64,000 bases of DNA from Persephonella marina EX-H1 (GTDB lineage: Bacteria; Aquificota; Aquificia; Aquificales; Hydrogenothermaceae). The stretch lies in NCBI RefSeq assembly GCF_000021565.1, contig NC_012440.1:376672-440671 (forward strand), in the 5' to 3' direction. Made by a program: the position numbers and the translations under genes. The notes under the pieces are model-generated. The model saw only the letters and a program-made list of their open reading frames with translations, had not been told where the DNA came from and did no database searches. Below are positions 44,508 to 63,646 of the stretch, one piece after another. Every line of letters starts with the position of its first letter. Within the stretch, counting starts at the first letter, position 1.

Positions 44508-45515
<1,008 letters not shown>

Positions 45516-45520
45516 AATAA

Positions 45521-47799: not shown

Positions 47800-47859
47800 C
47801 AACTTCCTCCTGTTTGGTACTAATTTCAATTATATAACAGATAGAAATTTCAGGTTTAT

Positions 47860-50328
47860 GTGATATATTCTTATCTTATGGAAACTTTAAGATACTACAG
47901 GAACAGAATAGCTTACTCAAGGATAATCCCACCTGTTTTTCCTGAATACGGTCAGTTTGATTTTAAGAACGAGAAGCTAAAAAGTTTTTTAGAGAGAAAA
48001 GATATAAAGCTCTACTCACATCAGGTAGAAGGACTTAACGCCGTAAAAGAAGGGAAAAATATTGTTGTAACAACACCTACAGCATCAGGTAAATCTTTTA
48101 TATACATACTTTCAATACTTGAAAGGCTGAAAGAGAATCCTGAGACAAAGGGAATTATAATCTTTCCCCTCAAAGCTTTAGCCCGGGATCAGTATGGAAA
48201 GATAATGGATCTTATACTTGAGACCGGTATAGATGCAAGAGTTGATGTTTATGATGGGGATACAGACAGAGAAAAAAGACAGGAGATAAAAAAAGATCCA
48301 CCAACATTTCTTATAACAACACCTGATATGCTGAATGCAGGGATACTTCCTTATCATACAGGCTGGTCTTCATTTTTTGAGAATCTTGATTTTATAGTAC
48401 TTGATGAGATTCATGCTTATAGAGGAATACTTGGATCCCATATAGCAAATATAGTGAGAAGGCTGAAGAGAATAACAGGATACTACAGAACAAAAAAGCC
48501 TGTTTTTATAATGAATTCTGCAACAGTTCACAATCCATCTTCTTTTGCATCTAAGCTTATTGGAGAGGAGGTTGTTGAGATATCAAGATCAGGTGCACCA
48601 TCACCTGAGAGGGAGATACAGATCTTCAGGAATTTAAGATCCTCTGAGACAGCAGAGCTTATAGCAAATACAGTTATTGAGGATATATCAAGTATCGTTT
48701 TTGTTGACAGTAGAAAGGAGGCCGAGATACTGTCACTCAGGGTTAAGGATATTCTTGTAAAGAAAGGGAGAGATGATCTGGTAGATAAGGTAAGTCCTTA
48801 CAGATCTGGTTACACACCTGCAGAAAGAAGAGAGATAGAGTTTAAACTTCTTACAAAAAATATACTTGCTGTGATCTCAACAAGTGCCCTTGAGATGGGT
48901 ATTGATATTGGAGACCTTGATAACTGTATTCTTGTTGGATATCCTGGAACCCTAGCACAGCTCTGGCAAAGATTTGGAAGAGCTGGAAGAAGGGATAGGA
49001 AGGCATACAACATTCTAATACCAAAAAGGAATGCGTTAGACCAGTACTTTGTTAAAAATCCCGAGGAGCTTTTTTACAGAAAGATGGAAGAACCTGTTAT
49101 AAATCCGGAAAACAGATACATACTTAAAAAGCACCTTCCTGTGATGGCAAGTGAGATACCTATAAAGCTTGATGAACTTTCTGAAAATGAGAAAGAGGTT
49201 GCAAGGGAGCTGTATAAGGAAGGCATTATCAGATTTTCAAATAACAAGCTTTACGCTTCAAGACAGAAGCCTTTCAGCATTAGATCAGCGGGAGAGAGTT
49301 TCAGGATTGTTGAGACAGTTTCAGGAAGAGTTATAGGAGATATATCTGAGGATATCGTCCTTTACGAGGCACATCCTGGAGCTGTTTATTTACATAACGG
49401 AGAGAAGTATATAGTTGAGCATCTTGATATGGAAGGTAAGGTTGTTTATGTGGTTCATTCTAATATCTCCTATATAACAGAGCCTTTGAAAGAGTCTTTC
49501 ATAGAGATAATAAAGGTTGAGGATTTCAGGAAAGCGGGAAGTATAGAGATTTTCAGAGGGAAGGTAAAGGTAAAAACGACTGTTGTAGGATACTCAATGA
49601 GGGACATTGAGTTTGACGAGAAGATGAACGAGGAGTTGTTTGATCCTGATAAGTATCTATCAAGGGAGTTTGAGACTGTTGCTTTCTGGTGGACAATGCC
49701 TCAGGAATGGGAAGAGGAGATCATACACAGAAATTTAAAACATAACGCAAGAATGCTTTACAGCTTTATCATCCAGAAGGGAAAACTTTACACAGGGAAG
49801 TTTGTATACTCTGATCTTGTTTTTGAGAATCTACTGAAGTTCAGAAAAAGTGGGGATATTACAGCTTTTGAGTTTGCATTAAAGGCAACAGAGAGTTTTG
49901 TAAGCAGACTCAGCCAGAAGGAGAAAGAGCAGTTTAATGAGTATAAAAGAAGGATAAAAGAGAGAAAAAACGGATTTTTAGGTGGGTTACACGGTGTTGA
50001 ACACGGTCTTATAGGTATTTATCCACTTTTTGCTATGAACGACAGATGGGATATAGGAGGTTTATCAACACCTTTCTTCCCTGAAACAGGAAGACCTACA
50101 GTTTTTATTTACGACGGTTATGAGGGTGGTGTTGGGTATTCAGAGGTTGGGTTTAACAGACTTAAGGAGATGATGGAAAGTACATATAAAACGATCTCAA
50201 AATGTGGCTGTATATCAGGCTGTCCATCCTGTATTTACTCGCCAAAATGTGGAAACTCAAATGATTATCTTGATAAAACAGCTTCTATAATTCTTTCCCA
50301 CAGAATACTGAAAGAGCTTTCTAAATGA
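47860..50328 (+). CDS. DEAD/H-box helicase of the MrfA/YprA type
   Basis: 822 residues. Helicase domains: TPTASGKSF Walker A, VLDEIHAYRG (DEIH box), SATVHN motif III, and QRFGRAGRR motif VI. The C-terminal zinc region has four cysteines in CGCISGCPSCIYSPKCGN, as in MrfA, a mitomycin-repair helicase. Start uncertain: GTG at 47860 (AGG five bases before) or ATG at 47878. Confidence 0.9.
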   Translation: MIYSYLMETLRYYRNRIAYSRIIPPVFPEYGQFDFKNEKLKSFLERKDIKLYSHQVEGLNAVKEGKNIVVTTPTASGKSFIYILSILERLKENPETKGIIIFPLKALARDQYGKIMDLILETGIDARVDVYDGDTDREKRQEIKKDPPTFLITTPDMLNAGILPYHTGWSSFFENLDFIVLDEIHAYRGILGSHIANIVRRLKRITGYYRTKKPVFIMNSATVHNPSSFASKLIGEEVVEISRSGAPSPEREIQIFRNLRSSETAELIANTVIEDISSIVFVDSRKEAEILSLRVKDILVKKGRDDLVDKVSPYRSGYTPAERREIEFKLLTKNILAVISTSALEMGIDIGDLDNCILVGYPGTLAQLWQRFGRAGRRDRKAYNILIPKRNALDQYFVKNPEELFYRKMEEPVINPENRYILKKHLPVMASEIPIKLDELSENEKEVARELYKEGIIRFSNNKLYASRQKPFSIRSAGESFRIVETVSGRVIGDISEDIVLYEAHPGAVYLHNGEKYIVEHLDMEGKVVYVVHSNISYITEPLKESFIEIIKVEDFRKAGSIEIFRGKVKVKTTVVGYSMRDIEFDEKMNEELFDPDKYLSREFETVAFWWTMPQEWEEEIIHRNLKHNARMLYSFIIQKGKLYTGKFVYSDLVFENLLKFRKSGDITAFEFALKATESFVSRLSQKEKEQFNEYKRRIKERKNGFLGGLHGVEHGLIGIYPLFAMNDRWDIGGLSTPFFPETGRPTVFIYDGYEGGVGYSEVGFNRLKEMMESTYKTISKCGCISGCPSCIYSPKCGNSNDYLDKTASIILSHRILKELSK

Positions 50329-51169
50329 TCCCTTCTGTTATAGCTTTTATACCTTCAAGTCCACCAAGTGGTATTGATATATCTCTTCCTGAAGGAATAT
50401 CATAATCTCTCGGGTTTATTCTTATTAATGTTCCAAATATCCTTTCTTTTACCCTTTCAGAGAACATTCTAACGGTAGGAACAGCCTTTCCGGCACCTAT
50501 CTCTATTATGGCTACCTCATAGCCTTTATCATCTACATCAAAAAGCCATCTATCAAGTCTGAACTCCTGTCCTGACGTTCTGTGGGGTATCCATTCCCAG
50601 TCTCCAAACATAAGAATATTAGGTCTTGCAAGTCCACCGCAGTATGGACAGGATGGGAGAGGATCCTTTGCCTCAAAACTTTCCATATCAATATCAATCT
50701 CAACACCGTCAGCAGACCAGATCTGATCACAGCAGGGCTGAACACACTGGAGGTGGTGTATTGATCCGTGAATCTCTACGATCTTTTTTTCGTCAAAACC
50801 TGCCTTCTGAAACTGACCGTCAACATTTGATGTGAAAACGAAATAGCCACCTTTTTTTGACTCACCTAATCTTCTGAGTATGTTAAATCCTTCGTGTGGC
50901 TGGGTGTTCCTGTAAAGGTGGAGTCTGTGTCCATAAAAAGCCCACGCAAGCCTTGGATTTTCTCTAAACCATCTTGGATTGGCAAGCTCTTCAAATCTAA
51001 GACCAAGTTTTTTTGCTATAGGATACGCCCTCCAGAAACCCTCTGTTCCCCGAAAGTCAGGCAGTCCGCTGTCAACACCCATTCCAGCACCGGCTGTTAT
51101 AAGGATCGCATCCGCCTTTTTTATAACTTCCTTTGCCCTATTTATTTCCTCTGATGTTTTGTCTAACAT
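50321..51169 (-). CDS. sirtuin-type NAD-dependent protein deacylase
   Basis: 282 residues. NAD-binding AGAGMGVDSGLPDFRG (26-41), FTSNVDGQF, catalytic histidine in EIHGSIHHLQC, and zinc cysteines (QPCC and CPYCGG). The region after the zinc module, GDWEWIPHRTSGQEFRLDRW, is longer than in CobB. Overlaps the convergent helicase by eight bases. Confidence 0.9.
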   Translation of the reverse strand: MLDKTSEEINRAKEVIKKADAILITAGAGMGVDSGLPDFRGTEGFWRAYPIAKKLGLRFEELANPRWFRENPRLAWAFYGHRLHLYRNTQPHEGFNILRRLGESKKGGYFVFTSNVDGQFQKAGFDEKKIVEIHGSIHHLQCVQPCCDQIWSADGVEIDIDMESFEAKDPLPSCPYCGGLARPNILMFGDWEWIPHRTSGQEFRLDRWLFDVDDKGYEVAIIEIGAGKAVPTVRMFSERVKERIFGTLIRINPRDYDIPSGRDISIPLGGLEGIKAITEGII

Positions 51170-51239
51170 CGGTTTTTACCAAACTATTCTAAATTTTTTG
51201 TAAAGTATATCCTCTTTGTTCACTTGAATTCAACAAATT

Positions 51240-51277
51240 ATGTCAAAAATCCCTTTTCAAATTTCTTGATAAATAAA
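51240..51277 (+). promoter_or_regulatory. repeated upstream element, copy 1
   Basis: TGTCAAA, exactly 14 bases, then TTTCTTGATAAATAAAA, ending about 20 bases before the first gene of the accessory cluster. Matching copies occur at 57822-57859 and, on the other strand, near 62450-62483. Likely a shared promoter or operator. Confidence 0.6.
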
Positions 51278-51299
51278 AGACTATAAAGGAGTTTGAAGG

Positions 51300-51551
51300 A
51301 TGGAAACTGAAAAGCAAGATAGAGAGCTTTTGAAGATACTTATAAACACTTTAGACCAATTAGATTTTCTTGTCAAGATAAACTCCAAATATTTATCTGA
51401 GAATAAAGATTTACAGTTAATATATCTGCAAAAATTGAAAAATATTAAAAGACTTATTGTTTCTCAGAAAACATTAATTTGTCAAAAAAACTTAGAATTA
51501 CTTCTTATAGACATAGAAAGAATTAAATCTACCCTGGAGGTTCCAAGATGA
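51300..51551 (+). CDS. hypothetical 83-residue helical protein
   Basis: First gene of the accessory cluster. Small, charged, leucine-rich helical protein (LLKILINTLDQLDFLVKI) with no signal peptide or membrane segment. Ribosome site AAAGGAG and a conserved upstream element before it. Its stop overlaps the next start by four bases. No family recognised; a cytoplasmic regulator or assembly partner is possible. Confidence 0.7.
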   Translation: METEKQDRELLKILINTLDQLDFLVKINSKYLSENKDLQLIYLQKLKNIKRLIVSQKTLICQKNLELLLIDIERIKSTLEVPR

Positions 51552-51946
51552 AAATAAAAAAACTTTTATTATTGCCAATTATTTTTATTCTTCTTGCAAA
51601 AAATGTTTTTGCCGAGCAATTATATCACCTCGCCAATCAGGATATTCATAATAACTTTATAAAAATCGCTCTTAATTTTGAGAAGGGCAATTTCGCTATC
51701 ATACCAAAACTTATTTCCCGAGAATCTATGGCATGTATTGATAGATTTAAAATTAGCATAGCTGCCTCCAGAAATGACCCTTGTAATTGTATTAGAGAAA
51801 TTAATGAAAACTTAAAAGGAGATAAACTTATTTTCAGTTTGGCGTTTTGCAATTACATCTTATACCTTAGAAAAAATAAGGATATAGACCTTCTCAATAT
51901 AAATACCTTCTTATTTACAAAATATAAAACGGAGGAACTAAAATGA
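51548..51946 (+). CDS. hypothetical exported protein with cysteines
   Basis: 132 residues with a strong signal peptide (MKIKKLLLLPIIFILLAKN, cleavage near VFA). The mature part has four cysteines, including CNC within DPCNCIREI, able to form disulfides. Overlaps both neighbours by four bases. Presumed periplasmic. No recognised family. Confidence 0.75.
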   Translation: MKIKKLLLLPIIFILLAKNVFAEQLYHLANQDIHNNFIKIALNFEKGNFAIIPKLISRESMACIDRFKISIAASRNDPCNCIREINENLKGDKLIFSLAFCNYILYLRKNKDIDLLNINTFLFTKYKTEELK

Positions 51947-52782
51947 GAACAATAAAAAATGTATCTAGCGTAGTTTTTTTACTCTTAGCTATTGTTTTTC
52001 AGATTTTATGTATATCCGCTTACGCGAATGATGCATATTCCAGTGAAGAGGTTTTAATAAGAAAAAAATTACGTGAGAATGGGAAAAAACTACAGGAGAA
52101 TAGCAAAGAAATTAAGTCTTTGTTGAATGAATTGCAGGAAAATCTGAAGAAAATTGAAAAGGAGTGCGGTACACCCGTCAAGAATAAAGCAAAAGAGGAA
52201 TATTGCCGTAAATCAAAAGTATACGAAACTTGGAACTATTACATTAAGCTTTTTGATGCTTTAAAAAAACAAGAAAAAACACTGATGCAAAGATATAACT
52301 TACTAAAAGATTATAGAAGCTCTGGAGTTACAGATCATCAACAAGAGTTTAAAGCTTTTCTCAGAGAATCTAAAGATACAGGAAGGAAAATTGTTGCTGT
52401 ATATACATCAATGAAGGATTTTCTTCCAGAAAGAGAAGCAAAATTATTGGAGAAAAAAATCAGAAACTTAAAGAAATACTTAAAGAGGCAAAAAAAGATA
52501 GAAGAATTTAGTAATCAGTTAGGTGATTCTGTGGATATTGAAATAATACGTTCACATACAAGGGATGCTATATATGAAATAAACCAACAACGAGAGGCAA
52601 TCAGAATAGTACTTTTAGGTTTTTACAATACATACTCTGGTTTGAAAAATAACTTAAGTAATATTTCTCTTGAGGAAATATTTGAAGTTGCAAAACCACT
52701 GTTAAAAAAGCAAAAAGAAGAAATAGAAATTGGAGGAGAAGAAAATGAAGAGATCACAGAGTATTTCTTTGAAGACCTTTAA
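51943..52782 (+). CDS. exported coiled-coil protein
   Basis: 279 residues, signal peptide (about 1-28), then a long run of charged heptads (LRENGKKLQENSKEIKSLLN and onwards to about 230) predicted as coiled coil, and a very acidic end (GGEENEEITEYFFEDL). Periplasmic, possibly spanning or scaffolding between membranes. Overlaps the ExbB-like gene start by 38 bases. Confidence 0.75.
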   Translation: MRTIKNVSSVVFLLLAIVFQILCISAYANDAYSSEEVLIRKKLRENGKKLQENSKEIKSLLNELQENLKKIEKECGTPVKNKAKEEYCRKSKVYETWNYYIKLFDALKKQEKTLMQRYNLLKDYRSSGVTDHQQEFKAFLRESKDTGRKIVAVYTSMKDFLPEREAKLLEKKIRNLKKYLKRQKKIEEFSNQLGDSVDIEIIRSHTRDAIYEINQQREAIRIVLLGFYNTYSGLKNNLSNISLEEIFEVAKPLLKKQKEEIEIGGEENEEITEYFFEDL

Positions 52783-53203
52783 GTATTCGTACTTATTCTC
52801 TTTGTTAATACTGATTGTTGGGTTTATGATGTTTAGAGAAAATATAATACTAACAACAAAGTGGTTATTAAATAAAGGTGGGATTATAACTATATTCATT
52901 ATTATAATTTCCGTATTATCCTTAGGTTCTTTAATATGGGACATAATAGACAAGGGAAAACCAAGTGAAAAAGTTCTATTTGTCCTCTCTTTTTTAGAAG
53001 TTCACGCAACTACATTGGGTTTGCTTGGTAGCATTATAGCTTTAGCCTTTAAGAGCCCCAGCATATTCGAAAATGACCGTATAAATAATGCTGCTCTAAT
53101 GAACGTTCTGTCAGAAGCATGGCTTTCAACTATCGCGGGATTAGTAGTTACACTGATCGTAAGCCTGATTCTAAGCTATGAAAAATCTAAAGGAGGTGAT
53201 TAG
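52745..53203 (+). CDS. ExbB/TolQ/MotA-like membrane protein
   Basis: About 152 residues, four hydrophobic segments (near 11-28, 40-60, 85-108 and 120-145). The last two carry the stator pattern: HATTLGLLGSIIALAF and ALMNVLSEAWLSTIAGLVVT, comparable to the housekeeping ExbB at 3709 (GLFGTVLGIIKAF and EALVATAMGLFVAI). With the next gene it should form a proton- or sodium-driven channel. ATG at 52745 preferred because GGAGGAGAAG precedes it. Directly followed, after a stop, by the ExbD-like gene. Confidence 0.75.
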   Translation: MKRSQSISLKTFKYSYLFSLLILIVGFMMFRENIILTTKWLLNKGGIITIFIIIISVLSLGSLIWDIIDKGKPSEKVLFVLSFLEVHATTLGLLGSIIALAFKSPSIFENDRINNAALMNVLSEAWLSTIAGLVVTLIVSLILSYEKSKGGD

Positions 53204-53602
53204 ATGAAATTCCGTCAGGGTGGGGGAAAGGTATCTGTAGCTTTTATAGATGTTTTCTTTAACCTGATGTTTTTGTTCTTGATACTTGCAATTATCCATA
53301 ATTCATCAAACGAAGCAACAGAACTTGATGCAAAAGATAGAGAAAAAAACACAGGAAATATGCAAATACTTGATGATTCTTATTATATAGGATTGAAAAA
53401 TAATAAATGGGTTGTATCTAAAGATAACCGCGAAGTTTTGATTTCTGACTTTGAAGAAATAATCAAATGGATAAAACAAAATAAGCCAACTTCAGTTGTC
53501 ATATTAGCAGACTCTAAGAAAAGAATTAGAATGAACCAGGTTTTTAAGATTATAGAAGCAATACAGAATTCTGGAGGAAACATTTACTATGCATTCCAAT
53601 AG
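53204..53602 (+). CDS. ExbD/TolR-like membrane protein
   Basis: 132 residues. One transmembrane helix with an aspartate at its N-terminal side (D16 in VSVAFIDVFFNLMFLFLIL), the place of the channel aspartate in ExbD. The C-terminal half keeps the ExbD/TolR fold rhythm (ISDFEEIIKWIKQN, SVVILADSKKRIRMNQVFK). The start abuts the ExbB-like stop. Partner of that gene. No OmpA-type peptidoglycan domain, unlike MotB or ZorB. Confidence 0.75.
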   Translation: MKFRQGGGKVSVAFIDVFFNLMFLFLILAIIHNSSNEATELDAKDREKNTGNMQILDDSYYIGLKNNKWVVSKDNREVLISDFEEIIKWIKQNKPTSVVILADSKKRIRMNQVFKIIEAIQNSGGNIYYAFQ

Positions 53603-54257
53603 AAAAAAAATAATATTTTTTAGCATGGTTGTAATGATATTATTAATGTTTAAACATATTAATCAGAAACATCCTATTTCTCTGAACAAAAGCGATATTC
53701 AAAAAAAACAACATCCTTCATATAGAAATCTAATTAAAGTAGACTCTCACCAAATACATAGCTATAAAAAAACCAAAGAAGCAAGGAATAACTACAAACA
53801 TAATACGCTACCCGTAAAAATAAAGCTCCACTTGTCAAAAGATGTAATTTTTCTTTTATTAAACAAAAATTCTAAGGTTTTCGTCTTTACTGGTAGAGGT
53901 AAAAATTCTTCCATTTTAGGCTACCTCGACTCAGATCTAAGAATTAAAGAACTGAGTAACATACCTGATACTATAATTGGCTATCAAATAAAGCTATTAT
54001 CTGCTGAAAGAAGGTTGATTTATGAGAAAAACTATATATGTAACAAGTTAAATTGTAAGTTGTTTTTACAACTTGATCCAAGATTAAAAATAATTATACA
54101 AAACTTAGTAAAAAAAGAAATCAAAAATAGGAATATATCTAAAATAGTATCTGTAAATGTTTCCCTCTTTGCACAAAAAGGGTATCTTTATCTAACAATT
54201 GATAGCATTCAATTAGAAGGAAAGAAAATACCCATAAAGAAAGTCTATCCAATATAG
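53589..54257 (+). CDS. single-pass membrane protein in the TonB/TolA position
   Basis: 222 residues: N-terminal anchor (about 7-22), a polar, basic linker (to about 75), and a C-terminal domain (about 80-222) with alternating strands (DVIFLLLNKNSKVFVFTGRG). Its place after an ExbB/ExbD pair is that of TonB or TolA, but no TonB motif is seen. Overlaps the ExbD-like end by 14 bases. Periplasmic domain function unknown. Confidence 0.7.
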   Translation: MHSNRKKIIFFSMVVMILLMFKHINQKHPISLNKSDIQKKQHPSYRNLIKVDSHQIHSYKKTKEARNNYKHNTLPVKIKLHLSKDVIFLLLNKNSKVFVFTGRGKNSSILGYLDSDLRIKELSNIPDTIIGYQIKLLSAERRLIYEKNYICNKLNCKLFLQLDPRLKIIIQNLVKKEIKNRNISKIVSVNVSLFAQKGYLYLTIDSIQLEGKKIPIKKVYPI

Positions 54258-54266
54258 GAGGGAGCA

Positions 54267-54794
54267 ATGATATTGAGGATTTTTCTTATGGTACTATTAA
54301 ACCTATCAATGGTACCAAATCTTTTCGCAGAAACTATTGATAAGAATGAGTGTATATTCAAATACTCAAGGACTTATTCCTTAGAAGAACTTTTTAAAGA
54401 AATGTATAAACTTTCAAAAAAATTTGATTTAGACCCGGATTTGATTTATTCCATCATTTATGTAGAAAGTAAATGGGACCCATGTGCAGTTTCCCATAAA
54501 GGTGCTATTGGACTTATGCAAATAATGCCTACAACGGCTTTGATATTCGATAAAAACCTTAAAACTGAGGAATTATTTGACCCAATAATAAATATGGAAA
54601 TAGGAATTCTTTATTTTAAAGCACTTTTATCATATTACGAACAGTTTCATCCAAAAGCAATTGCTATTAAAAAGGCCTTAATTGCCTATAATGCAGGTCC
54701 TTACGCAAAGAGTATTCCTTCAGAGAGTAAAAATTACGTCAAAAAAGTCTTTAAAATTTTCTATAAATTAAAAAGTAAGGAGGCAAAAAGATGA
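54267..54794 (+). CDS. lytic transglycosylase (SLT domain)
   Basis: 175 residues with a signal peptide (about 1-18). Catalytic glutamate E67 in IIYVESKWDP, then SHKGAIGLMQIMPTTA and ALIAYNAGP, the three SLT motifs. Cleaves peptidoglycan glycan strands. Compact enzymes of this kind commonly open the wall for transenvelope machines. It lies immediately downstream of the ExbB/ExbD-like set. Confidence 0.9.
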   Translation: MILRIFLMVLLNLSMVPNLFAETIDKNECIFKYSRTYSLEELFKEMYKLSKKFDLDPDLIYSIIYVESKWDPCAVSHKGAIGLMQIMPTTALIFDKNLKTEELFDPIINMEIGILYFKALLSYYEQFHPKAIAIKKALIAYNAGPYAKSIPSESKNYVKKVFKIFYKLKSKEAKR

Positions 54795-55204
54795 AAAAGT
54801 CAGGATTTATCATAATGACATTTATAGCCTTGTTTTTATTCTCCTGCACCCCAAAAGGAGTAAATACTACATTACAGAAAACCAACTATAAAAAAACACC
54901 CTTATTAAGAATTTCCAGTAAAAAAGCCCAAATATTAGAGGCAATTGAATTAAATCTCAAACAGGGCAAGTTTGATGAAGCAGTTAAACAATGTGAGGAC
55001 ATTGTTTATGGCGATTATGAAAACATGGGAGTGAAGTGTATAGCCTCAACCTATTACTCCTTAGCTTATTTACTACAGGGAGATATAGAAACCTTTCTTT
55101 CTGTTGGAAATTATATGGAAGAGTTTTGTAGTGGCTTCAAAACCATACCAAAACAAACAGAGGTACTCATCAACTTATATAACAATTGGAATAGAAAATC
55201 TTAA
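54791..55204 (+). CDS. lipoprotein with TPR-like helices
   Basis: 137 residues. Lipobox LFLFSC (cysteine near 19). The rest is helical, with TPR-like rhythm (AIELNLKQGKFDEAVKQCED, then ASTYYSLAYLLQGDIETFL). Start overlaps the transglycosylase stop by four bases. Likely an outer-membrane component or pilotin of the apparatus; that role is inferred. Confidence 0.75.
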   Translation: MKKSGFIIMTFIALFLFSCTPKGVNTTLQKTNYKKTPLLRISSKKAQILEAIELNLKQGKFDEAVKQCEDIVYGDYENMGVKCIASTYYSLAYLLQGDIETFLSVGNYMEEFCSGFKTIPKQTEVLINLYNNWNRKS

Positions 55205-55215
55205 GGAGGATAGCT

Positions 55216-55584
55216 ATGCAGATATTAACAGGAATTTTAATACTTGTCATTCTGCTTATAGCTGGTTCGTTCTTTTTGCAGGGAAAAAAAGAAAATTTAC
55301 TCAATCTACCGACTCAAACAGACGTAAAAACAAGCAAACAACACACAAAAGATGTTAAAACCCAACAAAATAGTTATTCTCAGAAAGAAGAGTTAAAAGA
55401 TGAGTTGGAAGATAACCAGGAATACACTTCTAAAGATAACTCTGAAAAACACGAAACTATTGATGAAAAGATTGAACATTACTCTTCTTTTTATGATAAT
55501 GAAATTTACAAAGATAAAGTTGAAGAGTTAGATAAAAATTTAGAGGACTTGGCTGATAAAACTGCTGAAAGAATATTTAATTGA
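55216..55584 (+). CDS. membrane-anchored acidic protein
   Basis: 122 residues: an N-terminal hydrophobic helix (3-22) then a hydrophilic, glutamate- and lysine-rich segment likely to be disordered or coiled coil, ending KVEELDKNLEDLADKTAERI. Ribosome site AAGGAGG. No family recognised. Last of the tightly packed short genes before the 732-residue gene. Confidence 0.65.
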   Translation: MQILTGILILVILLIAGSFFLQGKKENLLNLPTQTDVKTSKQHTKDVKTQQNSYSQKEELKDELEDNQEYTSKDNSEKHETIDEKIEHYSSFYDNEIYKDKVEELDKNLEDLADKTAERIFN

Positions 55585-55620
55585 TATATTGATATACTAT
55601 GGTCAGGGAGGTTTATAAAT

Positions 55621-57819
55621 ATGGGGAACATATATACAACACATACAGATGAACTTAACAAAATAAATCCTTCCTTGAATGCGAAACCCCTAAATGAATT
55701 TAATATAGATGAACTTACTAGTGAGGATATTGTAATATTCTTTGATAGTATTTACAGTGACTTTATTTCAAACAGGATTATTAACAAGGAAGTTCAAAAA
55801 ATAGAAGAGCCCGAAGATATAGTAACCGTAGAACTACCATTTATGATTAACTTTGGAGATGAAAATAATCCGATGTTTTTCTTCAGCACAGAAAATTTAG
55901 AGGATTTAAAGGAAGAAAGACTTTTTTTACTAAATGATGTTTTTCATATAATTTTAGACTTTGTATTATACGATTTATTAGAAGAAATAGAAAGAATAAA
56001 AATGTCCCAGGAACTCAGTGAACTTGCTGAAGCCGAGCTTACATTAAGGTCTGCAATTCAAAAAAAAGACATTATCCGTATTATAGATAGACATCATTTC
56101 GGAACAATATTTTTAGCAACTTTCAATATAGATATGGGTAATAAAATTTACATGTTCCTTTTCAGGGGAAAAATTTCATGGAACAGAAAGGACAACAATG
56201 GTTTCAAACCCTTCATAATACGATACGAGGAAACAATAATTGAAAAAATAAAAGAAGCTATAAATACAGGAAAATTAAACTTAAAAGAGCAAAATATTAA
56301 TGATGCAAAACCTGATGGAACAACCATTGATTTCAATGTGGAAGATACAAAGCTAAGTATTTATGAAGTGAAAGACCTTTCCAAAAAAACTGCAATTATA
56401 CTGCTTGATATTAACAATAATGTAAAGAAAATTATTTTTCCTAAAGAACTGAAAATTAATAACGAGGTTTTATATGGTTTTGAGTTAGATGTTGAGGATT
56501 TTAATAACGAAAATAAATTTTTCGTTGAATTGAATAAAAAAGACAAAAACATCTTATTAGATATATATAAAAACCTAAAAAACAAGTACATTGAAATAAA
56601 AAATGATGACGGAAATACAATTAAAGAAATAAACTTAGGTAGTATGTTTTTAGAAAACTTACAGAAATCTTTGCTTTATGAGTTTAATAAAGAGCATAGG
56701 CTTTTTAATAAGCTAATCAAGCTGAATGGAAAAATAAATTACTCCTTTTATGAAAAAATTATGGAAATTATAAAAAACTCTTTAACAAAAAATTATATTA
56801 ATCAAAATCCTGAGCTTTTAAGCAAATTGTTTGATATTTTATTACAAAGAGGAAATAAACTTCCACATATCGAAATTATATTTACAACACGAGATATTCT
56901 GAAGAAGTACAATAGAAATGAAGAGAATATACCAGGCTTTTTGAAAAGATTAGGTAATTACTATGTAATAAAAATAATACAGAAGTTATTTGAAGAAAAA
57001 AAGAAAACAAATAAAGGAACGAATAAAAAAAGTCAACCATATGACGCAAATCGTCATTATAATATTTCTGAAAATACTGATGAAGAATATGAAGATATTG
57101 ACGAAGACAAGAAATATCTCTCGCGAGAGGCCATTAACACATTAATAAAGCAGCCAACTCTTATTGATAATAAGAGAGGGCGTAAAGAAAACAAATTAAA
57201 CAAACTTTTATTGCTTACATTTTATCTCGCCGATGGATTAATATATTATCGTAATAAACATGCACCCAAATGTAAACTTAGTGCAGTTTACGGATATATA
57301 ATGGAACATAACTCCGAAGGAAAAAAATATAGATATAATTCGGCAAAAGAGATTAAGGGAACTTATAACTGGGACGCAGGTATTTTCTCCATCATTGAGT
57401 TTGTGGGTAAAAATGACAATGAATACTGTGTATATAGGGAACTCATTGATTTTCTAAACAAATCTTATTCGAATGAAGAAAAAGAAATTTCGGGTATTAT
57501 TTTCAAAGCAGCTGAAACTTTAGATAAGTTAACAAAAGAAGTGGTTGCTGAACTGGTTAGTAAAAAGAAAAGAGAGGATTGTACAGATGAATTAAAAAAC
57601 AGAATCCTAAAAGAACTCTATCCACAAATCTTAATCTTCCTCAATGATAATCTAAATCTCTATATACTAAGTAAAGAATGCCATAATCATGAAATAAAAG
57701 AATACTTTGAAAATCCATTTGTACCAGCAACAAAAATAAATGGACTATATAACCGATATAAACAAGGAATAAAAAGATTGTTTGAAGAAGCTCGAAATGT
57801 AGCCATATCAAACAAGTAA
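55621..57819 (+). CDS. large cytoplasmic protein of unknown family
   Basis: 732 residues, no signal or membrane helix. Very rich in Lys, Glu, Asn and Ile. Visible parts: an acidic N-terminal region, a middle domain (about 250-350), a low-complexity linker near 460-500 (TNKGTNKKSQ and EEYEDIDEDKK), and a C-terminal region starting YLSREAINTLIKQPTL. I see no nuclease, ATPase or protease motif. It may be the cytoplasmic scaffold or sensor of the cluster. Ribosome site GGGAGG; 36 bases after the preceding gene. Confidence 0.7.
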   Translation: MGNIYTTHTDELNKINPSLNAKPLNEFNIDELTSEDIVIFFDSIYSDFISNRIINKEVQKIEEPEDIVTVELPFMINFGDENNPMFFFSTENLEDLKEERLFLLNDVFHIILDFVLYDLLEEIERIKMSQELSELAEAELTLRSAIQKKDIIRIIDRHHFGTIFLATFNIDMGNKIYMFLFRGKISWNRKDNNGFKPFIIRYEETIIEKIKEAINTGKLNLKEQNINDAKPDGTTIDFNVEDTKLSIYEVKDLSKKTAIILLDINNNVKKIIFPKELKINNEVLYGFELDVEDFNNENKFFVELNKKDKNILLDIYKNLKNKYIEIKNDDGNTIKEINLGSMFLENLQKSLLYEFNKEHRLFNKLIKLNGKINYSFYEKIMEIIKNSLTKNYINQNPELLSKLFDILLQRGNKLPHIEIIFTTRDILKKYNRNEENIPGFLKRLGNYYVIKIIQKLFEEKKKTNKGTNKKSQPYDANRHYNISENTDEEYEDIDEDKKYLSREAINTLIKQPTLIDNKRGRKENKLNKLLLLTFYLADGLIYYRNKHAPKCKLSAVYGYIMEHNSEGKKYRYNSAKEIKGTYNWDAGIFSIIEFVGKNDNEYCVYRELIDFLNKSYSNEEKEISGIIFKAAETLDKLTKEVVAELVSKKKREDCTDELKNRILKELYPQILIFLNDNLNLYILSKECHNHEIKEYFENPFVPATKINGLYNRYKQGIKRLFEEARNVAISNK

Positions 57820-57821
57820 TT

Positions 57822-57859
57822 TGTCAAATTTTACCTCCAGAATTTCTTAATAAGTAAAA
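57822..57859 (+). promoter_or_regulatory. repeated upstream element, copy 2
   Basis: TGTCAAA, 14 bases, TTTCTTAATAAGTAAAA, 20 bases before the ATG of the 143-residue gene. Same spacing and core as at 51240-51277. Confidence 0.6.
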
Positions 57860-57878
57860 CAATCTGGAGGTAATTAAG

Positions 57879-58310
57879 ATGAATACTAATCCCGAATTTG
57901 AAAGAAATATGAATAATTTATTCAATGAAATTGAAAAAGATTTTAAACTCAGGGAAATTGCAAAAAAAATAGCTCATATTAAACCGCAAAAAGAGTTTGA
58001 TGAAATTTCCAATGGTCATGTCTATATGATTTCCCAAGAGGAATTTGAAAAACTTGATAATCTCATTTATGAAATAATGGCAATGAGTACTTCTTTACCT
58101 GACCATTTAAACAATATCATTAAACTCTGGGAACTTAACAATGTAGATGTAAAAGCCTTGATTTATCTATCTTTTTTTAGTGGGAAATATATGGGAATAA
58201 CTATAGGAAAGGATATAGGGAAATTAGAATCTATGAATCTATTAAAGACGGAATTTCCTAATTTCTTAAAAGAAGTTTTATATAAAAACTCAAAGGATTA
58301 TAGGAAGTAA
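57879..58310 (+). CDS. hypothetical 143-residue protein
   Basis: Soluble, helical, acidic-basic mixed protein without signal peptide. Segment ELNNVDVKALIYLSFFSGKYMGITIG is moderately hydrophobic. Strong ribosome site (CTGGAGG) and a copy of the cluster's upstream element. No family recognised. Same AT-rich codon use as the genes before it. Confidence 0.7.
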   Translation: MNTNPEFERNMNNLFNEIEKDFKLREIAKKIAHIKPQKEFDEISNGHVYMISQEEFEKLDNLIYEIMAMSTSLPDHLNNIIKLWELNNVDVKALIYLSFFSGKYMGITIGKDIGKLESMNLLKTEFPNFLKEVLYKNSKDYRK

Positions 58311-58609
58311 TAAACTTTTGCTTGATACAGGTAAAAGCTTTAAAAGGGAATAATATCCTAATAAGGTTTAGTTGGACTACAGAAGCAATATAAACGGCGG
58401 TAGGGTAGAGGTTTCATGATATGTTAACTGTTAGTAAAGCACTGAATTTGAGATTTATAGAATAAATAATTAGGTAAAATTGAGGTTTTAGGCATAGCTC
58501 CGATAATTATTTAATTATAAGGAGATATTATTCAAGTTATAAATTGAATAAGTTAAAGTTTTCCAGATGGTTGTAAAAGGTTTAAGATTTTAGGACGAGG
58601 TGATTTAAA
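58311..58609. other. 299-base non-coding gap with inverted repeat
   Basis: No supported gene. A 9-base exact inverted repeat (AAATAATTA at 58464-58472 and TAATTATTT at 58504-58512) with a GG/CC continuation surrounds a 31-base interior. It lies about 100 bases before the CHAT gene and could be a leader structure or regulator site. No tRNA or known riboswitch recognised. Confidence 0.35.
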
Positions 58610-61423
58610 ATGAACCCAAAAATTGAAGCCTTAATCAACCAGCTTGAAGAATTAAAAAACAAATCAGATTCAGAAGCATGTAAAAATCTATTTGGTACTG
58701 TAATTGAGGTATTAAAAAATGAACCCACTAATGATGAAATATTAGAGGAATTGTTATCTTATTTTTGGAAAGAAGGAGATAAAATCAATCAAATTTGTCC
58801 AGATTATTATACCTCTTTCCTAAAAATTTTAGGAAATCTCTCTGAATTATTTTCAGACGATAAATTAAAATATTTTCACCTTGGCGTTTCATGGTATAGA
58901 TCAGGAAAAATCCACAAAGAAAAAGGAAATCTTGATGATGCTATGAACTGTTTTAAAAATGCTATCAGATACTATGAAAATACTGTCAATATTGACTCTA
59001 ACCTTGCAAATGCATGGTACAACCTTGGCCTTTCATGGGCTAAATCAGGAAAAATTCATAAAGAAAAAGGAAATCTTGATGATGCTATGAACTGTTTTAA
59101 AAATGCTATCAGATACTATGAAAATACTGTCAAAATTAACCCTAACTTTGCAGATGCATGGTACAACCTTGGCCTTTCATGGGCTAGATCAGGAGAAATT
59201 CATAAAGAAAAAGGAAATCTTGATGATGCTATGAACTGTTTTAAAAATGCTATCAGATACTGTAAAAATGCTGTCAAAATTAACCCTAACCTTGCAAATG
59301 CATGGAGTAACCTTGGCTTTTCATGGGCTAAATCAGGAGAGATTCGCAAAGAAAAAGGAAATCTTGATGATGCTATGAACTGTTTTAAAAATGCTATCAG
59401 ATACTGTGAAAATGCTGTCAAAATTAACCCTAACCTTGCAAATGCATGGTACAACCTTGGCGTTTCATGGCAAAAATTAGGAGAAATTCACAAAGAAAAA
59501 GGAAATATATTTGATAACTCTATCAGATGTCTTGAAAATGCTGTCAAAATTAACCCTAACTTTGCAGATGCATGGTACAACCTTGGCGTTTCATGGGCTA
59601 GATCAGGAGAAATTCATAAAGAAAAAGGAAATCTTGATGATGCTATGAACTGTTTTAAAAATGCTATCAGATACTGTGAAAATGCTGTCAATATTGACCC
59701 TAACCTCGCAAATGCATGGAGCGACCTTGGTATTTTATGGAGAATGTTGATAAAAATTATTCCAATAAAGCCATTATTAAATACAGCAATTTCTTATGAG
59801 CTAACTATTTTATTTAATTTAAAAAGGATTATTGATGGTCTTAATTCTAAACTTTTAATTGAAAGTTATATTAACAAATTTGTTTTTTCTTCGTTGGATA
59901 GATTACTTTTTTATTCTTCACTTCACAAAAATAGTCTGACAGAAAAAAAGGAAATATTAGAAGCTGTGGAACAGTTTAAAGGTTATTTCTTCTTCAAGGA
60001 GTTCGTGGGAAAACAGCAGATTACGGACAATACTAATTTAAACAAATTACTAAAACTGCATGAAAAATTTAATGTTAACAAAACAATAGAAAATGCGCTA
60101 CATAGCCTTAAAAACGCAATGCAAAAAGATAATTCCATTGATACTAACCTTTTAAGATATATAATTCTTGAGTCAGAAGCTGAAAATTCCACAAATAATA
60201 AAGAAAAAACCAGAGAGATTGAACAAATATTTTATGACACTCTTAAAAATATATCTGTTAACTTTAATTTTGATAATCTCAATTTAAAAACTAATGAAAC
60301 TATTGTGTACCTATTGTTTAGAGAAATTGCTATTTATAGAGATATCAAAAGAGTACTTACCATAATATTAGTTTATAAAAATGGTGGCGAAATAAAAGTA
60401 AATACAAAAAATTATGATATAGGAGGAACTAATATTGACGATTATGCAGAGATATCCTATTTACTAAACGCAAAACTTATCCTTCCATTAGCATCAAATA
60501 AAAACTTAGATGATAATCTATTAAAAGATATAAAAAATAAAATAGAAAGAAGTCTAATAAGAGATGAAACAAAAAATTATATTTTAGATTTTATTGAAAG
60601 TAATTCATTAAAAGAATTTTTACTGATTCGTAGAAAGTTATTTGCTGATGTTATAGATATACTCAAGAGACATGTACTCCCTTTAATTCCAAAAGACAAA
60701 ACCAGAGTTTATATATCCCCTATAGGTGAACTAAATAGACTTCCTGTACATATTGCCCTGATTGACGAAAAAGAAGTTTCTTATCTGCCAACTGCAAAAC
60801 TGTTAGAAAAAAGAATACAGCTAACATTTTCTAAGAAAGCTTTAATTGTATTTACAGAAGAAAAACAGCTAAAAGATGAAGCTGTAGAAGTGGAAAAAAT
60901 CTTGAAAGAAGATGGATATTTTGTAGAAATGCTTAATCTGAGCCAATATTCCAACAGGAAAGAAATTCTCAAAAAGAAATTAGAAGAAAAAGATTGGAAT
61001 ATCGTCCATTTTGTTCTGCATGGAAAGTACGATGAAGACACAAATATGTCTTATCTTATACTTTCTCCTACAGAAAATTTAACCCGTGAAGATATCTACC
61101 TTATGAATTTAAATATAAATTTAGTTTCCCTTAGCTCCTGCGAAACATATACAAACAAGAAAGTTGAAGGATTTGATGAAATAAACGCTATTGAGAAGGC
61201 ATTTCTGGTCAATAATGTACAGAGAGTTATATCTACATATTATGCTGTATTTTCTAAAGGGGCTAAAGAGTTCAGCACTTCATATTTTAAACAGTTAATA
61301 AAAGAAAATCACAACTTTGAAAAAGCGTTCAGGAATACAGTCCTTGAGCTTAAACAAAAAGGAGAAGATGAATATATGTTCTTCAGATATACGTCTAAAG
61401 GACAAGATACTATAGTTATCTAA
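58610..61423 (+). CDS. TPR-CHAT protein (caspase-like protease)
   Basis: 937 residues. N-terminal helical part, then six TPR-like units of 48 or 42 residues (about 100-375; GKIHKEKGNLDDAMNCFKNA, with NAWYNLGLSW), a helical middle region, and a C-terminal CHAT domain (about 690-937). The CHAT dyad is intact: H804 in VHFVLHGKY and C844 in LVSLSSCET. CHAT proteases are known effectors in bacterial conflict systems (type III-E CRISPR, gasdermin loci). The repeats probably bind a partner. Ribosome site GAGGTGA. Trigger and substrate unknown. Confidence 0.9.
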   Translation: MNPKIEALINQLEELKNKSDSEACKNLFGTVIEVLKNEPTNDEILEELLSYFWKEGDKINQICPDYYTSFLKILGNLSELFSDDKLKYFHLGVSWYRSGKIHKEKGNLDDAMNCFKNAIRYYENTVNIDSNLANAWYNLGLSWAKSGKIHKEKGNLDDAMNCFKNAIRYYENTVKINPNFADAWYNLGLSWARSGEIHKEKGNLDDAMNCFKNAIRYCKNAVKINPNLANAWSNLGFSWAKSGEIRKEKGNLDDAMNCFKNAIRYCENAVKINPNLANAWYNLGVSWQKLGEIHKEKGNIFDNSIRCLENAVKINPNFADAWYNLGVSWARSGEIHKEKGNLDDAMNCFKNAIRYCENAVNIDPNLANAWSDLGILWRMLIKIIPIKPLLNTAISYELTILFNLKRIIDGLNSKLLIESYINKFVFSSLDRLLFYSSLHKNSLTEKKEILEAVEQFKGYFFFKEFVGKQQITDNTNLNKLLKLHEKFNVNKTIENALHSLKNAMQKDNSIDTNLLRYIILESEAENSTNNKEKTREIEQIFYDTLKNISVNFNFDNLNLKTNETIVYLLFREIAIYRDIKRVLTIILVYKNGGEIKVNTKNYDIGGTNIDDYAEISYLLNAKLILPLASNKNLDDNLLKDIKNKIERSLIRDETKNYILDFIESNSLKEFLLIRRKLFADVIDILKRHVLPLIPKDKTRVYISPIGELNRLPVHIALIDEKEVSYLPTAKLLEKRIQLTFSKKALIVFTEEKQLKDEAVEVEKILKEDGYFVEMLNLSQYSNRKEILKKKLEEKDWNIVHFVLHGKYDEDTNMSYLILSPTENLTREDIYLMNLNINLVSLSSCETYTNKKVEGFDEINAIEKAFLVNNVQRVISTYYAVFSKGAKEFSTSYFKQLIKENHNFEKAFRNTVLELKQKGEDEYMFFRYTSKGQDTIVI
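58880..59735 (+). repeat. six near-identical tandem repeats within the CHAT gene
   Basis: Units recur with GGAAAT at 58925, 59069, 59213, 59357, 59501 and 59627: four steps of 144 bases and one of 126. A core of about 45 bases (starting AATCTTGATGATGCTATG) is identical in five of the six. The near-identity at DNA level points to recent expansion or homogenisation. Confidence 0.9.
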
Positions 61424-61442
61424 GAACAAGAGAAATTTGGAA

Positions 61443-61465
61443 GGGGGAAATTTTAAGTTTCCCCC
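61443..61465. terminator. terminator hairpin between convergent genes
   Basis: GGGGGAAA and TTTCCCCC with a 7-base loop, lying between the CHAT stop and the convergent zinc-knuckle gene. The T run is weak (ATTATAATT). It may serve either direction. Confidence 0.65.
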
Positions 61466-61492
61466 ATTATAATTGGAGTTAAACTCTTAGAA

Positions 61493-61777
61493 TCAACCTG
61501 TTCTAACAGCTCTACGAATTTTGTATTTCCCAAAGGCAGGAACTGCCCCGACACCACCACAAACCGAACATTTTCCCCAACCTGCTGAACCACCTCCTCC
61601 ACAGTAACCACATTTAACTATTGGAGTTTCTGGTTCTTCACATACCAAAGTAATCACCCCGACTCCTCCGCAAACCGAACATTTTCCCCAACCTGCTGAA
61701 CCACCTCCTCTACAGTAACCACATTTAACTATTGTAACTTTTCCTTGTTTTTCAATAACAACAACTTTTAGATTCAT
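61493..61777 (-). CDS. small protein with two zinc-knuckle repeats
   Basis: About 94 residues from the ATG at 61777 (AGGAGG seven bases before). Two copies of KCGYCGGGGSAGWGKCSVCG-like sequence, each with two CxxC pairs and Gly-rich spacing like the DnaJ cysteine-rich module, probably binding one zinc per copy or per pair. No J-domain. Overlaps, in its ribosome site, the end of the preceding small gene. A chaperone-like or nucleic-acid-binding role is possible. Confidence 0.7.
   Translation of the reverse strand: MNLKVVVIEKQGKVTIVKCGYCRGGGSAGWGKCSVCGGVGVITLVCEEPETPIVKCGYCGGGGSAGWGKCSVCGGVGAVPAFGKYKIRRAVRTG
61550..61734 (-). repeat. direct repeat encoding the two zinc knuckles
   Basis: Two segments of about 74 bases (61550-61623 and 61661-61734), offset by 111 bases, differ at only a few positions. 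It shows duplication within the gene. Confidence 0.85.
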
Positions 61778-61782
61778 TTTTC

Positions 61783-61983
61783 TCACCTCCTAATCATAAA
61801 ATGCCATGATAAAATATCTTCAATTGCTATACTTTCACCAACGTAACTTTTTGTACTTTCTTTACACCGGTTTTTTCGCAAATTATCTTTCATCCTCAAA
61901 CTGAGTTGAGATTTCCATTCCAGTATTCCTTCCAGTAAAGCTAAACCTGTTTGCTTCTTTGCAGGTTTACTTTCCTTCATCAT
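61783..61983 (-). CDS. hypothetical small basic protein
   Basis: About 66 residues from the ATG at 61983 (GGAGG seven bases before). Basic (KPAKKQ, RMKDNLRKNRCKES). The ribosome site of the next gene is inside its last codons (TAGGAGGTGA), so the two are coupled. No family recognised. Confidence 0.6.
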   Translation of the reverse strand: MMKESKPAKKQTGLALLEGILEWKSQLSLRMKDNLRKNRCKESTKSYVGESIAIEDILSWHFMIRR

Positions 61984-62000
61984 CTTTAGCACCTCCAAAG

Positions 62001-62423
62001 TTATTTAGTTAAAAACAAGTCTCTGTTTCTTACTACATGGAAAACAAACGGAAGAATTTCTTCTGTATAAGGGGTGAGTTTTAGGTTTGATAAATCTTCA
62101 ATAGAGAACCATTGAGCATTCTTGTTTTTTATCTGTATTTTATCCTTCTGAATCTCACATATAAAAAGATTTAATATATAGTGCCTATTTAATTTAGTGT
62201 CCTTAAAACAGAAACTACAGAATTGATTTACTTTGTTAATATTGTTTATTCCTGTTTCCTCATTTATCTCCCTAATTAAACATTCTTCGAGAGATTCATA
62301 TTCTCTTTTTTTTCCTCCGGGTAACTCTAAATATCCGTTGTATCTGTTCGAATCTTCCCTCCTAACTAGTACAATATCGCTATTGTTTAAAATTATTCCT
62401 TTACATATATTTACTAATTCCAT
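62001..62423 (-). CDS. Nudix hydrolase (MutT-like)
   Basis: 140 residues. Full Nudix box: GGKKREYESLEECLIREI followed by NEETGI, matching G-x5-E-x7-REU-x-EE-x-G-U. Cleaves nucleoside diphosphate-linked substrates; specificity is not readable, with mutagenic dNTP cleanup a possibility. Ribosome site CAGGAGG. An upstream motif copy like those in the accessory cluster precedes it. Confidence 0.9.
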   Translation of the reverse strand: MELVNICKGIILNNSDIVLVRREDSNRYNGYLELPGGKKREYESLEECLIREINEETGINNINKVNQFCSFCFKDTKLNRHYILNLFICEIQKDKIQIKNKNAQWFSIEDLSNLKLTPYTEEILPFVFHVVRNRDLFLTK

Positions 62424-62445
62424 TATCGTATCCTCCTGAATTATC

Positions 62446-62483
62446 TTTCAATAAATAAGAAAAATCTCTCGGAAAATTTGACT
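62446..62483 (-). promoter_or_regulatory. repeated upstream element, copy 3
   Basis: On the minus strand AGTCAAA (62477-62483), 14 bases, TTTCTT (62457-62462) and ATTTATTGAAAG, before the Nudix start. The core and spacing match copies 1 and 2 although the tail differs. Confidence 0.5.
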
Positions 62484-62901
62484 TAATTACCTTGTTTATA
62501 ATGATTTTTTGAGATAATATGACGAAAATTACATAACATAGCTTCAAAGTTTTTCCTAAATATGAATATAAAATTCTGACCAAAAAGGATTTTGAGAATA
62601 GAACTGAAAATTTGTAGAATAAAAAAAATTAAAAATAAGATACTTGTTTAAAACTCTCAAAGAAACAAATTACAATACCGGCTAATTGCAAGAAAAAAAG
62701 TTAGGGACAGATGTTATAGAAATGCATGACGAACACGGAAAAATTACGATAGAATCTTTGAGAAGTTTTTATGGAGTATGCATAAATACGCAATAAAGAT
62801 CAAATGAATAGAAGAAATTAACTGGACAGAAAAGGAATGTGTTGAAAAAAATAATATAATTATTCATCCCCCTGGTCAGATCAATCAGGTACAGGTTAAA
62901 C
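62484..62901. other. 418-base stretch without a recognised gene
   Basis: AT-rich. Short open pieces on the plus strand, for instance one reading KLGTDVIEMHDEHGKITIES (around 62695-62760), could be relics of a lost gene, but each is broken by stops and none has a ribosome site. No tRNA or repeat seen. Confidence 0.4.
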
Positions 62902-63522
62902 TCAGAATGTTAGACCAAACTCAACGTTTACTACTGTTCCACCAAAATCGAAAGTTTCTTCGTACTTAGTAACATTACCGTATGAATCAATTTCATAAAA
63001 CTGAAAATCCTGATTGTTAGTAAAAAACTTGATAAATGTACCTATAAAAGCTTTTGGTGATATAGAGTATCTCATTCCTGCTTTTAAAACACCACCTGTT
63101 CCTCTACCGGCATCTTCATAGGTGTATTCATAGTATCCATCTGTAGCTGTTAAAGAGAGTTTATTCATATAAATGCCCAGTCCAATCCCAGCATAAAGCT
63201 CCAGTTTGTTGTTCTGATGGGAGAATATTCCGATAACTTCTATTCCTCTGGTCTGTATTTCACCTGATCCTGTTAGTCCAGTATCGTAAAGTTCAGCCTG
63301 TGTAGAATGCCCTGATAGGTCAAAGTGGAGATAAAAAGACTGTGAGACCCTTTTTGAAAGAGATACTGTAATGTCTGTTCCTTCATCCCAGCCGTCAAGA
63401 TCTTCAGAATTTGGATAAAAAATGCCTGCACTTAGAGAAACTCGGCTCTCGTAGGCATAGGGTTGAGAAAAGATTAGAAAAAACATAACAGGAACAAGAA
63501 AAAAGTTTTTGAATTTAAACAT
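62902..63522 (-). CDS. outer-membrane beta-barrel protein
   Basis: 206 residues: signal peptide (about 1-23, ending PYAYES), then alternating amphipathic strands (GIEVIGIFSHQN, LELYAGIGLGIYMNKL, GGVLKAGMRYSIS) ending in the C-terminal phenylalanine (VVNVEFGLTF) that targets barrels to the Bam machine. An eight-strand, OmpA/OmpW-like barrel is likely. Function unknown. Confidence 0.8.
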   Translation of the reverse strand: MFKFKNFFLVPVMFFLIFSQPYAYESRVSLSAGIFYPNSEDLDGWDEGTDITVSLSKRVSQSFYLHFDLSGHSTQAELYDTGLTGSGEIQTRGIEVIGIFSHQNNKLELYAGIGLGIYMNKLSLTATDGYYEYTYEDAGRGTGGVLKAGMRYSISPKAFIGTFIKFFTNNQDFQFYEIDSYGNVTKYEETFDFGGTVVNVEFGLTF

Positions 63523-63610
63523 TAAAAGAACCTCCAGCGTTTTAATAATTAAGAACGCTGAAGATAGAAGATACCTGACAGATCCTGATATTTTTTAAAG
63601 ATTTGATGAA

Positions 63611-63635
63611 GAAAAGCTGGCTTTAAAAGCCAGCT
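63611..63635 (-). terminator. terminator of the second barrel gene
   Basis: AGCTGGC and GCCAGCT with a 7-base loop; on the minus strand TTTTC follows. It lies 12 bases after the stop of the gene at the window edge. Confidence 0.6.
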
Positions 63636-63646
63636 AGATAAATTTT

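Follow-up and report, generated by a model that had tools for sequence, protein, structure and literature searches.

Within the window, by which we mean the whole 64-kb stretch of Persephonella marina EX-H1 DNA analyzed, positions 51300 to 61423 are occupied by a row of 12 listed genes, all on the plus strand. Neighboring genes overlap or are <60 bases apart, except upstream of the gene for a predicted CHAT protease, where the gap is 299 bases; apart from that gap, the 36 and 59 bases that flank the gene for a 732-aa protein are the largest in the row. The genes and features are as follows:

51300-51551, plus strand: first gene of the row, encoding an 83-aa soluble protein (ORF; no Pfam match at E ≤ 0.01)
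51548-51946, plus strand: 132-aa protein, probably secreted (N-terminal hydrophobic stretch)
51943-52782, plus strand: 279-aa charged protein, hydrophobic at its N terminus and probably coiled coil
52748-53203, plus strand: ExbB/TolQ/MotA-like membrane protein, 151 aa in this short form (alternative start TTG at 52730)
53204-53602, plus strand: ExbD/TolR-like protein, 132 aa (Pfam ExbD, 32.0 bits; cut-off 25.4)
53589-54257, plus strand: 222-aa bitopic protein at the TonB/TolA gene position (one N-terminal membrane segment; no Pfam match)
54267-54794, plus strand: secreted lytic transglycosylase, SLT (Pfam SLT, E 8.7e-25)
54791-55204, plus strand: 137-aa putative lipoprotein (ORF; lipobox LFSC read by eye)
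55216-55584, plus strand: 122-aa protein with one N-terminal membrane segment followed by a charged region
55621-57819, plus strand: the 732-aa protein
57831-57873, plus strand: RNA hairpin of 11 pairs enclosing GGAGG upstream of the 143-aa gene
57879-58310, plus strand: 143-aa soluble protein (possible homologue at L024:541-828, see below)
58610-61423, plus strand: 937-aa TPR-CHAT caspase-like protease (Pfam CHAT, E 1.6e-17, and TPR)
61443-61465, plus strand: terminator-like stem of 10 pairs, soon after the CHAT stop codon

The row was probably acquired horizontally, which fits its GC content of 0.291, compared with 0.357 for the 64-kb window. The 86-base stretch around the hairpin folds with a z score of -3.89, and none of 200 shuffles was as stable; translational control through the enclosed ribosome-binding site of the 143-aa gene is possible. 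The stem at 61443-61465 is weak evidence, because six terminator-like stems were seen in the region and 4.1 are expected. A promoter scan was uninformative (59 sites versus 53.9 expected), and the one snoRNA match in Rfam, below threshold, was disregarded.

The 732-aa gene is a real protein-coding ORF. It runs without internal stop from an ATG at 55621 to a stop codon at 57819, with the ribosome-binding site AGGGAGG 8 bases upstream of the ATG and a GC content of 27.7%. The chance that a random frame would stay open for 732 codons at the local base composition is ~1e-31. The protein has no membrane segment and its highest 19-residue hydrophobicity value is 1.58 (residue 102), so the cytoplasmic location given in a preliminary description of this DNA is reasonable and the protein is probably cytosolic. 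The same description had presented it as a large unknown protein of 732 residues in a gene cluster and without a recognizable domain, and on these points it holds. The gene is a member of the same-strand row; no family was found for its product in Pfam or PADLOC (E ≤ 1) or in PHROGs or NCBIfam (E ≤ 0.1), and the PDB yielded a single match at E up to 5, to a designed helical repeat protein (E 0.55).

Structure prediction, which had been proposed as a check, gave no usable fold. The AlphaFold2 model of the 732-aa protein alone has a mean pLDDT of 32.8, with 726 of 732 residues <50; a run on L026:854-1684, from the related cluster described below, to which a piece of the N-terminal part of the 732-aa protein was added as a second row, gave 40.1. 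Secondary structure in the low-confidence model suggests a mixed alpha/beta part up to residue ~338 and a mostly helical part from ~339. Residues 456-500 are highly charged and have no predicted structure in that model.

At E ≤ 0.001 the only match to the 732-aa protein among 101 genomes is its own genome, and there is no relative among the 135 other Aquificota genomes. At E ≤ 1, three of the 136 genomes of the phylum matched, those beyond its own with short matches of E 0.055 and 0.096. No relatives were detected in plasmids or phages (tblastn, E ≤ 0.1) or in pattern scans of genome_contigs and viral_contigs, scans that detect only close relatives when built from one protein. At the sensitivity used, the sequence is that of an orphan, and the iterative profile search that had also been proposed thus had no relatives to build on. 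Given the lack of detectable relatives, its function is therefore better approached via the neighboring genes than via its own sequence. The preliminary description had rated this protein as the best handle on relatives. None was found with it, whereas its ExbD-like neighbor found the sole related cluster. The handles for more such rows are the ExbD-like, SLT, and 53589-type genes, and the gene row is more interesting than the 732-aa protein itself.

The ExbD-like protein found the related cluster among the Aquificota genomes, and a pattern scan of genome_contigs (one genome per species; 84,980 species) led to it again. Of 371 stretches that matched the pattern, one encodes a relative, and it is this second cluster, in an Aquificaceae MAG (contig JALWVU010000030.1; stretches labeled L024 and L026). 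Five genes are homologous and keep their order in both clusters, namely those for the 51943 protein, the ExbB-like and ExbD-like proteins, the 53589 protein, and SLT. The CHAT gene is also shared and precedes the five-gene block in the related cluster, i.e., it is on the opposite side compared with the window.

The 51943 protein is homologous to L024:8570-9337 (blastp E 1.6e-11 among 12 related-cluster proteins; E 9.9e-10 in the genome search), and the ExbB-like protein to L024:9264-9776 (blastp E 3.3e-13), with ATTLGL and STIAGLV common to both. The form of the ExbB-like protein that starts at 52730 is marginally above the cut-off for Pfam MotA_ExbB (23.9 bits; cut-off 22.9). Its related-cluster homologue has no MotA_ExbB match in Pfam at E ≤ 1, and the ExbB profile matched no PDB chain at E ≤ 1. 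The ExbD-like protein is homologous to L024:9757-10167 (blastp E 6e-19, 30% identity), and Asp16 in its membrane segment is kept in both clusters in the alignment. We predict that the ExbB-like and ExbD-like proteins are an ExbBD/TolQR-type motor pair. For the 53589 protein and L024:10173-10814, the one pair of the block whose homology is based on shuffling, Z is 8.0 and none of 200 shuffles was as good. SLT is 41% identical to L026:10817-11356, and Glu67, which we take to be the catalytic position, is kept. The CHAT protein aligns to L026:5589-8081 with 27% identity; His804 (in HG) and Cys844 (in SSC), presumably catalytic, are kept in both. With this domain, His, and Cys, the 58610 product is predicted to be a protease of the CHAT type.

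The remaining small proteins of the row have weaker connections to the related cluster. No counterpart was seen there for the 83-aa protein or the 137-aa putative lipoprotein. The 51548 protein has a counterpart by position only, at L024:8187-8573; with a Z of 1.9 and 13 of 200 shuffles scoring equally well, the similarity lacks significance, and the two are not each other's best match in either direction. The 122-aa protein has weak matches only, e.g., to spanins (E 0.0016).

Adjoining the related cluster, on the other strand, are genes for TnsA, TnsB, TniB, and TniQ, all four recognized by Pfam. Between tnsA and hisF on this contig are two exact 13-base repeats, first noticed by eye. Allowing one mismatch or fewer, they occur nowhere else in that genome, and up to three mismatches give seven sites in 20 kb versus 3.96 expected; the repeats are only suggestive, because a reversed control pattern gave one and two matches. 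The related cluster is likely to be cargo of a Tn7-like element, although the other end of such an element is absent from the contig. No Tns genes were found beside the window cluster, and the only TnsC relative of its own genome is ~0.8 Mb away (for the genome, TnsC was the component sought). This TnsC-type ATPase, at C2:1235173-1236003, is 46% identical to the one beside the related cluster. In the related cluster, GC is 0.43-0.50 in the kilobase bins of the five shared genes, as it is elsewhere on that contig; low GC is therefore no trait of the module.

Between the CHAT gene of the related cluster and a gene for a 578-aa protein is a second, diverged lysyl-tRNA synthetase (L024 3692-5290), which shares 47% identity with the genome's other copy.

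The motor genes are rare in the phylum. At E ≤ 0.001 the ExbD-like protein is found in two of 136 Aquificota genomes, as expected of an accessory system. At E ≤ 0.01 the ExbB profile matched three of 136, one of which (E 0.008) has internal stops and was not counted. Plasmids gave no match to the ExbD-like proteins of both clusters or to the 51943 protein, and viral_contigs gave none to the ExbD or ExbB alignments. A helicase encoded upstream of the cluster is matched at E <1e-250 in 15 of 26 genomes, its own included, and at E ≤ 0.001 in 22 of 26. We compared the flanks with six relative loci, using as queries the ORFs in window positions 45001-64000 and those of L043, a 20-kb stretch that starts within the window and extends past it. 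Only the helicase and one ORF beyond the window (26-28% identity, in two loci) matched, and no empty insertion site could be demonstrated at the six loci.

CHAT is matched in at least six of 136 Aquificota genomes and above the cut-off in at least five; these counts are lower bounds because the CHAT gene of the window was itself missed by the search. Neighborhoods were compared on six contigs: five, from four genomes, have CHAT above the cut-off, and the match on the sixth is below it. In a blastp comparison with the two clusters (E ≤ 0.01), two of these contigs matched, in each case by the CHAT protein only. On five further Aquificota contigs with CHAT no cluster protein adjoins it; four have CHAT at or near the contig end, and neighbors may be missing because two contigs are <4 kb and CHAT is mostly at a contig end.

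Does the related cluster encode a counterpart of the 732-aa protein? The candidates are two adjacent proteins, of 276 aa (L024:854-1684) and 578 aa (L024:1688-3424), and the 732-aa protein might be a fused, strongly diverged version of both. Their genes adjoin a possible counterpart of the 143-aa neighbor, and the order helix, beta, helix, beta is common to the N-terminal half and the 276-aa protein (by eye, in low-confidence models). In a search of 12 related-cluster proteins, the 732-aa protein gave a 94-residue match of 28% identity (E 0.58) and, against the 578-aa protein, a 391-residue match of 20% identity (E 0.05). The similarities are not significant, however: 48 of 500 shuffles were as good for the N-terminal part and the 276-aa protein, and 15 of 500 for the C-terminal part and the 578-aa protein. 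Ranking fails as well. Over 38 ORFs of the related contig, the 276-aa protein is outside the top five for the N-terminal half and the 578-aa protein is second for the C-terminal half; over 73 window ORFs, the 732-aa protein is outside the top five for both. We consider such a fusion improbable, and no counterpart of the 732-aa protein could be demonstrated in the related cluster by shuffling or by ranking over the 38 and 73 ORFs. The homology of the five-gene block is independent of this ranking.

The 143-aa protein and L024:541-828 are each other's best match over the same ORFs (Z 3.8 and 3.5), and two of 200 shuffles were as good. They are only possible, weakly supported homologues, because unrelated pairs in the same ranking reach Z 4.0 and 6.1.

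The preliminary description had taken the 732-aa protein for a central component. This is unproven, as the related cluster keeps the motor, the transglycosylase, and CHAT with no demonstrable counterpart of it, and the module may therefore do without it. The protein could even be a passenger, i.e., an orphan that evolves fast, arrived together with the island, and is functionally unlinked to the motor and CHAT. Its lack of relatives in everything searched, the absence of a demonstrated counterpart, and the comparatively large flanking gaps all point this way. The position of the gene among co-directional genes of the row, with its own ribosome-binding site, and the possible counterpart of the next gene, for the 143-aa protein, in the related cluster argue against it. 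On balance we find the passenger reading doubtful.

Three kinds of known systems resemble parts of the row. The first are the Ton and Tol-Pal machines (ExbBD-TonB and TolQRA), in which, as here, genes for an ExbB-like and an ExbD-like protein are followed by one for a bitopic periplasmic protein. Among named proteins, TolR is closest to the ExbD-like protein: TolR chains are the top natural PDB match of the ExbD-like pair (E 0.015, ranked behind a designed protein at E 0.0083), and the NCBIfam matches also carry the name TolR, at scores far under the cut-off (E 4e-4 and 0.004). The row may thus be a Ton/Tol-like envelope machine that energizes an outer-membrane or surface process such as assembly, secretion, or uptake. 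The 732-aa protein would then be a scaffold or regulator in the cytosol, and CHAT would be a processing protease. The putative lipoprotein and SLT would also suit this function. However, Pfam gives no TonB or TolA match for the third protein (53589), no outer-membrane receptor was seen in the row, and the SLT enzyme, CHAT protease, and large cytosolic orphan in the same row set it apart from Ton and Tol-Pal. An apparently complete ExbB-ExbD-TonB-like set (by eye) is located elsewhere in the window, at 3709-5457, and the genome therefore has another besides the row. The Tn7-like neighbors in the relative and the occurrence in two of 136 genomes also fit an accessory function better. An envelope machine is thus possible, although we have some doubt about it.

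The second comparison is with Zorya. In these systems ZorB has a C-terminal peptidoglycan-binding domain, and the effectors are ZorC and ZorD or ZorE. The published account describes a MotAB-like motor coupled to cytosolic effectors and a MotA-like ZorA with a long cytoplasmic extension that is required for defense (PMC11890865). Zorya and the row both encode a MotA/ExbB-class inner-membrane motor with cytosolic parts, and in both envelope sensing is proposed to drive a cytosolic effector. They differ in that the 151-aa ExbB-like protein ends ~9 residues after its last membrane segment, without a long tail. Its 132-aa partner is of the ExbD/TolR type, with only ExbD above the Pfam cut-off and no OmpA-type peptidoglycan-binding domain. 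Among 10 of the 12 row proteins (all except the 83-aa and the 51548 132-aa proteins), PADLOC gave no match to ZorC, ZorD, or ZorE at E ≤ 1; a CHAT protease and an SLT enzyme are encoded instead. Judged by the ZorA tail, the ZorB peptidoglycan-binding domain, and the effectors, the row does not appear to be a Zorya system.

The third is the Csx29/Csx30 pair of type III-E CRISPR. In the published account, the TPR-CHAT protease Csx29 cuts Csx30 at a flexible loop, and Csx30 is the largest of three neighboring proteins tested with Csx29 (PMC10028731). The row likewise encodes a TPR-CHAT protease and, close by, a large cytosolic orphan whose charged segment looks flexible, and the CHAT protein of the related cluster matches the Csx29 model weakly (E 8e-6; 25 bits versus a cut-off of 300). 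The CHAT protein of the window, in contrast, has no Csx29 match, and no Cas gene was seen in the row. The 732-aa protein has no match to any model in PADLOC or NCBIfam, libraries that may lack one for Csx30. By analogy, residues 456-500 are only suggestive of a hypothetical CHAT cleavage site.

Bringing these comparisons together, we tentatively view the 732-aa protein as a lineage-specific cytosolic component of a probably acquired, probably anti-phage conflict system that combines a motor with CHAT. We infer that the row's products would act as one system. The ExbB/ExbD-type inner-membrane motor with its bitopic periplasmic arm would sense or act on the envelope, and the lytic transglycosylase may open the cell wall to let the arm through. 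The motor signal would then pass to the TPR-CHAT protease, a caspase-like enzyme of the cytosol whose gene follows downstream in the same orientation. Encoded between motor and CHAT, the 732-aa protein might serve as a fast-evolving adaptor, sensor, or CHAT substrate, in the last case possibly cut in the charged segment 456-500, as Csx29 cuts Csx30.

Speaking for this reading are the single strand and close spacing of the row, the Pfam matches to ExbD, SLT, CHAT, and, marginally, MotA_ExbB, the gene order and key residues shared with a cluster beside Tn7-like genes, the low GC of the row, the scarcity of the ExbD-like protein in the phylum, and the ZorA2 match of the ExbB-like protein. Several observations weigh against it. 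The row makes up no PADLOC system, and the best PADLOC match of the ExbB-like protein, to ZorA2, is weak (E 0.0013, positions 40-144). The related ExbB-like protein lacks a Pfam MotA_ExbB match, CHAT is on the opposite side of the module in the relative, and here the 299-base gap precedes it. The lysyl-tRNA synthetase within the related cluster is needed by no simple defense model. Finally, the five other CHAT contigs have no adjoining cluster proteins, and there is no fold for the 732-aa protein.

A bolder version of the motor-CHAT conflict system seems to us a long shot. It would be a motor-gated bacterial caspase, in which the ExbBD-type proton motor reads envelope damage and activates TPR-CHAT, which cuts the charged segment of the 732-aa protein and releases an effector domain, and would constitute a new kind of defense. 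If the parts cooperate, a membrane proton motor is joined to a caspase-like protease, a pairing without description in the literature that we found; among the matches listed, no open-access title or abstract opening has an ExbBD motor together with a CHAT protease. If true, the row would provide a testable case of envelope sensing driving proteolysis, in thermophiles with proteins suited to structural work, and specificity or killing would be encoded in the 732-aa protein.

Some further features of the two clusters and their surroundings were recorded. The PADLOC model PDC-M18B, matched by the related ExbB-like protein at E 0.0012, was left unused, as no paper by that name was found. The TPR part of the CHAT gene (58734-59867) consists of 144-base units, with two-unit copies up to 92-93% identical, suggesting recent repeat expansion or contraction. 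Three further loci of the window are on the minus strand. At 45734-46487 there is a probable toxin-antitoxin pair, PIN-like and ribbon-helix-helix-like by eye. A 97-aa protein at 61493-61786 has two copies of the zinc-finger-like motif CGYCxGGGSAGWGKCSVCGG and no Pfam match at E ≤ 0.01. A protein encoded at 62001-62423, NUDIX-like by eye, is matched by PDC-S07, a candidate model of PADLOC (E 1.4e-20).
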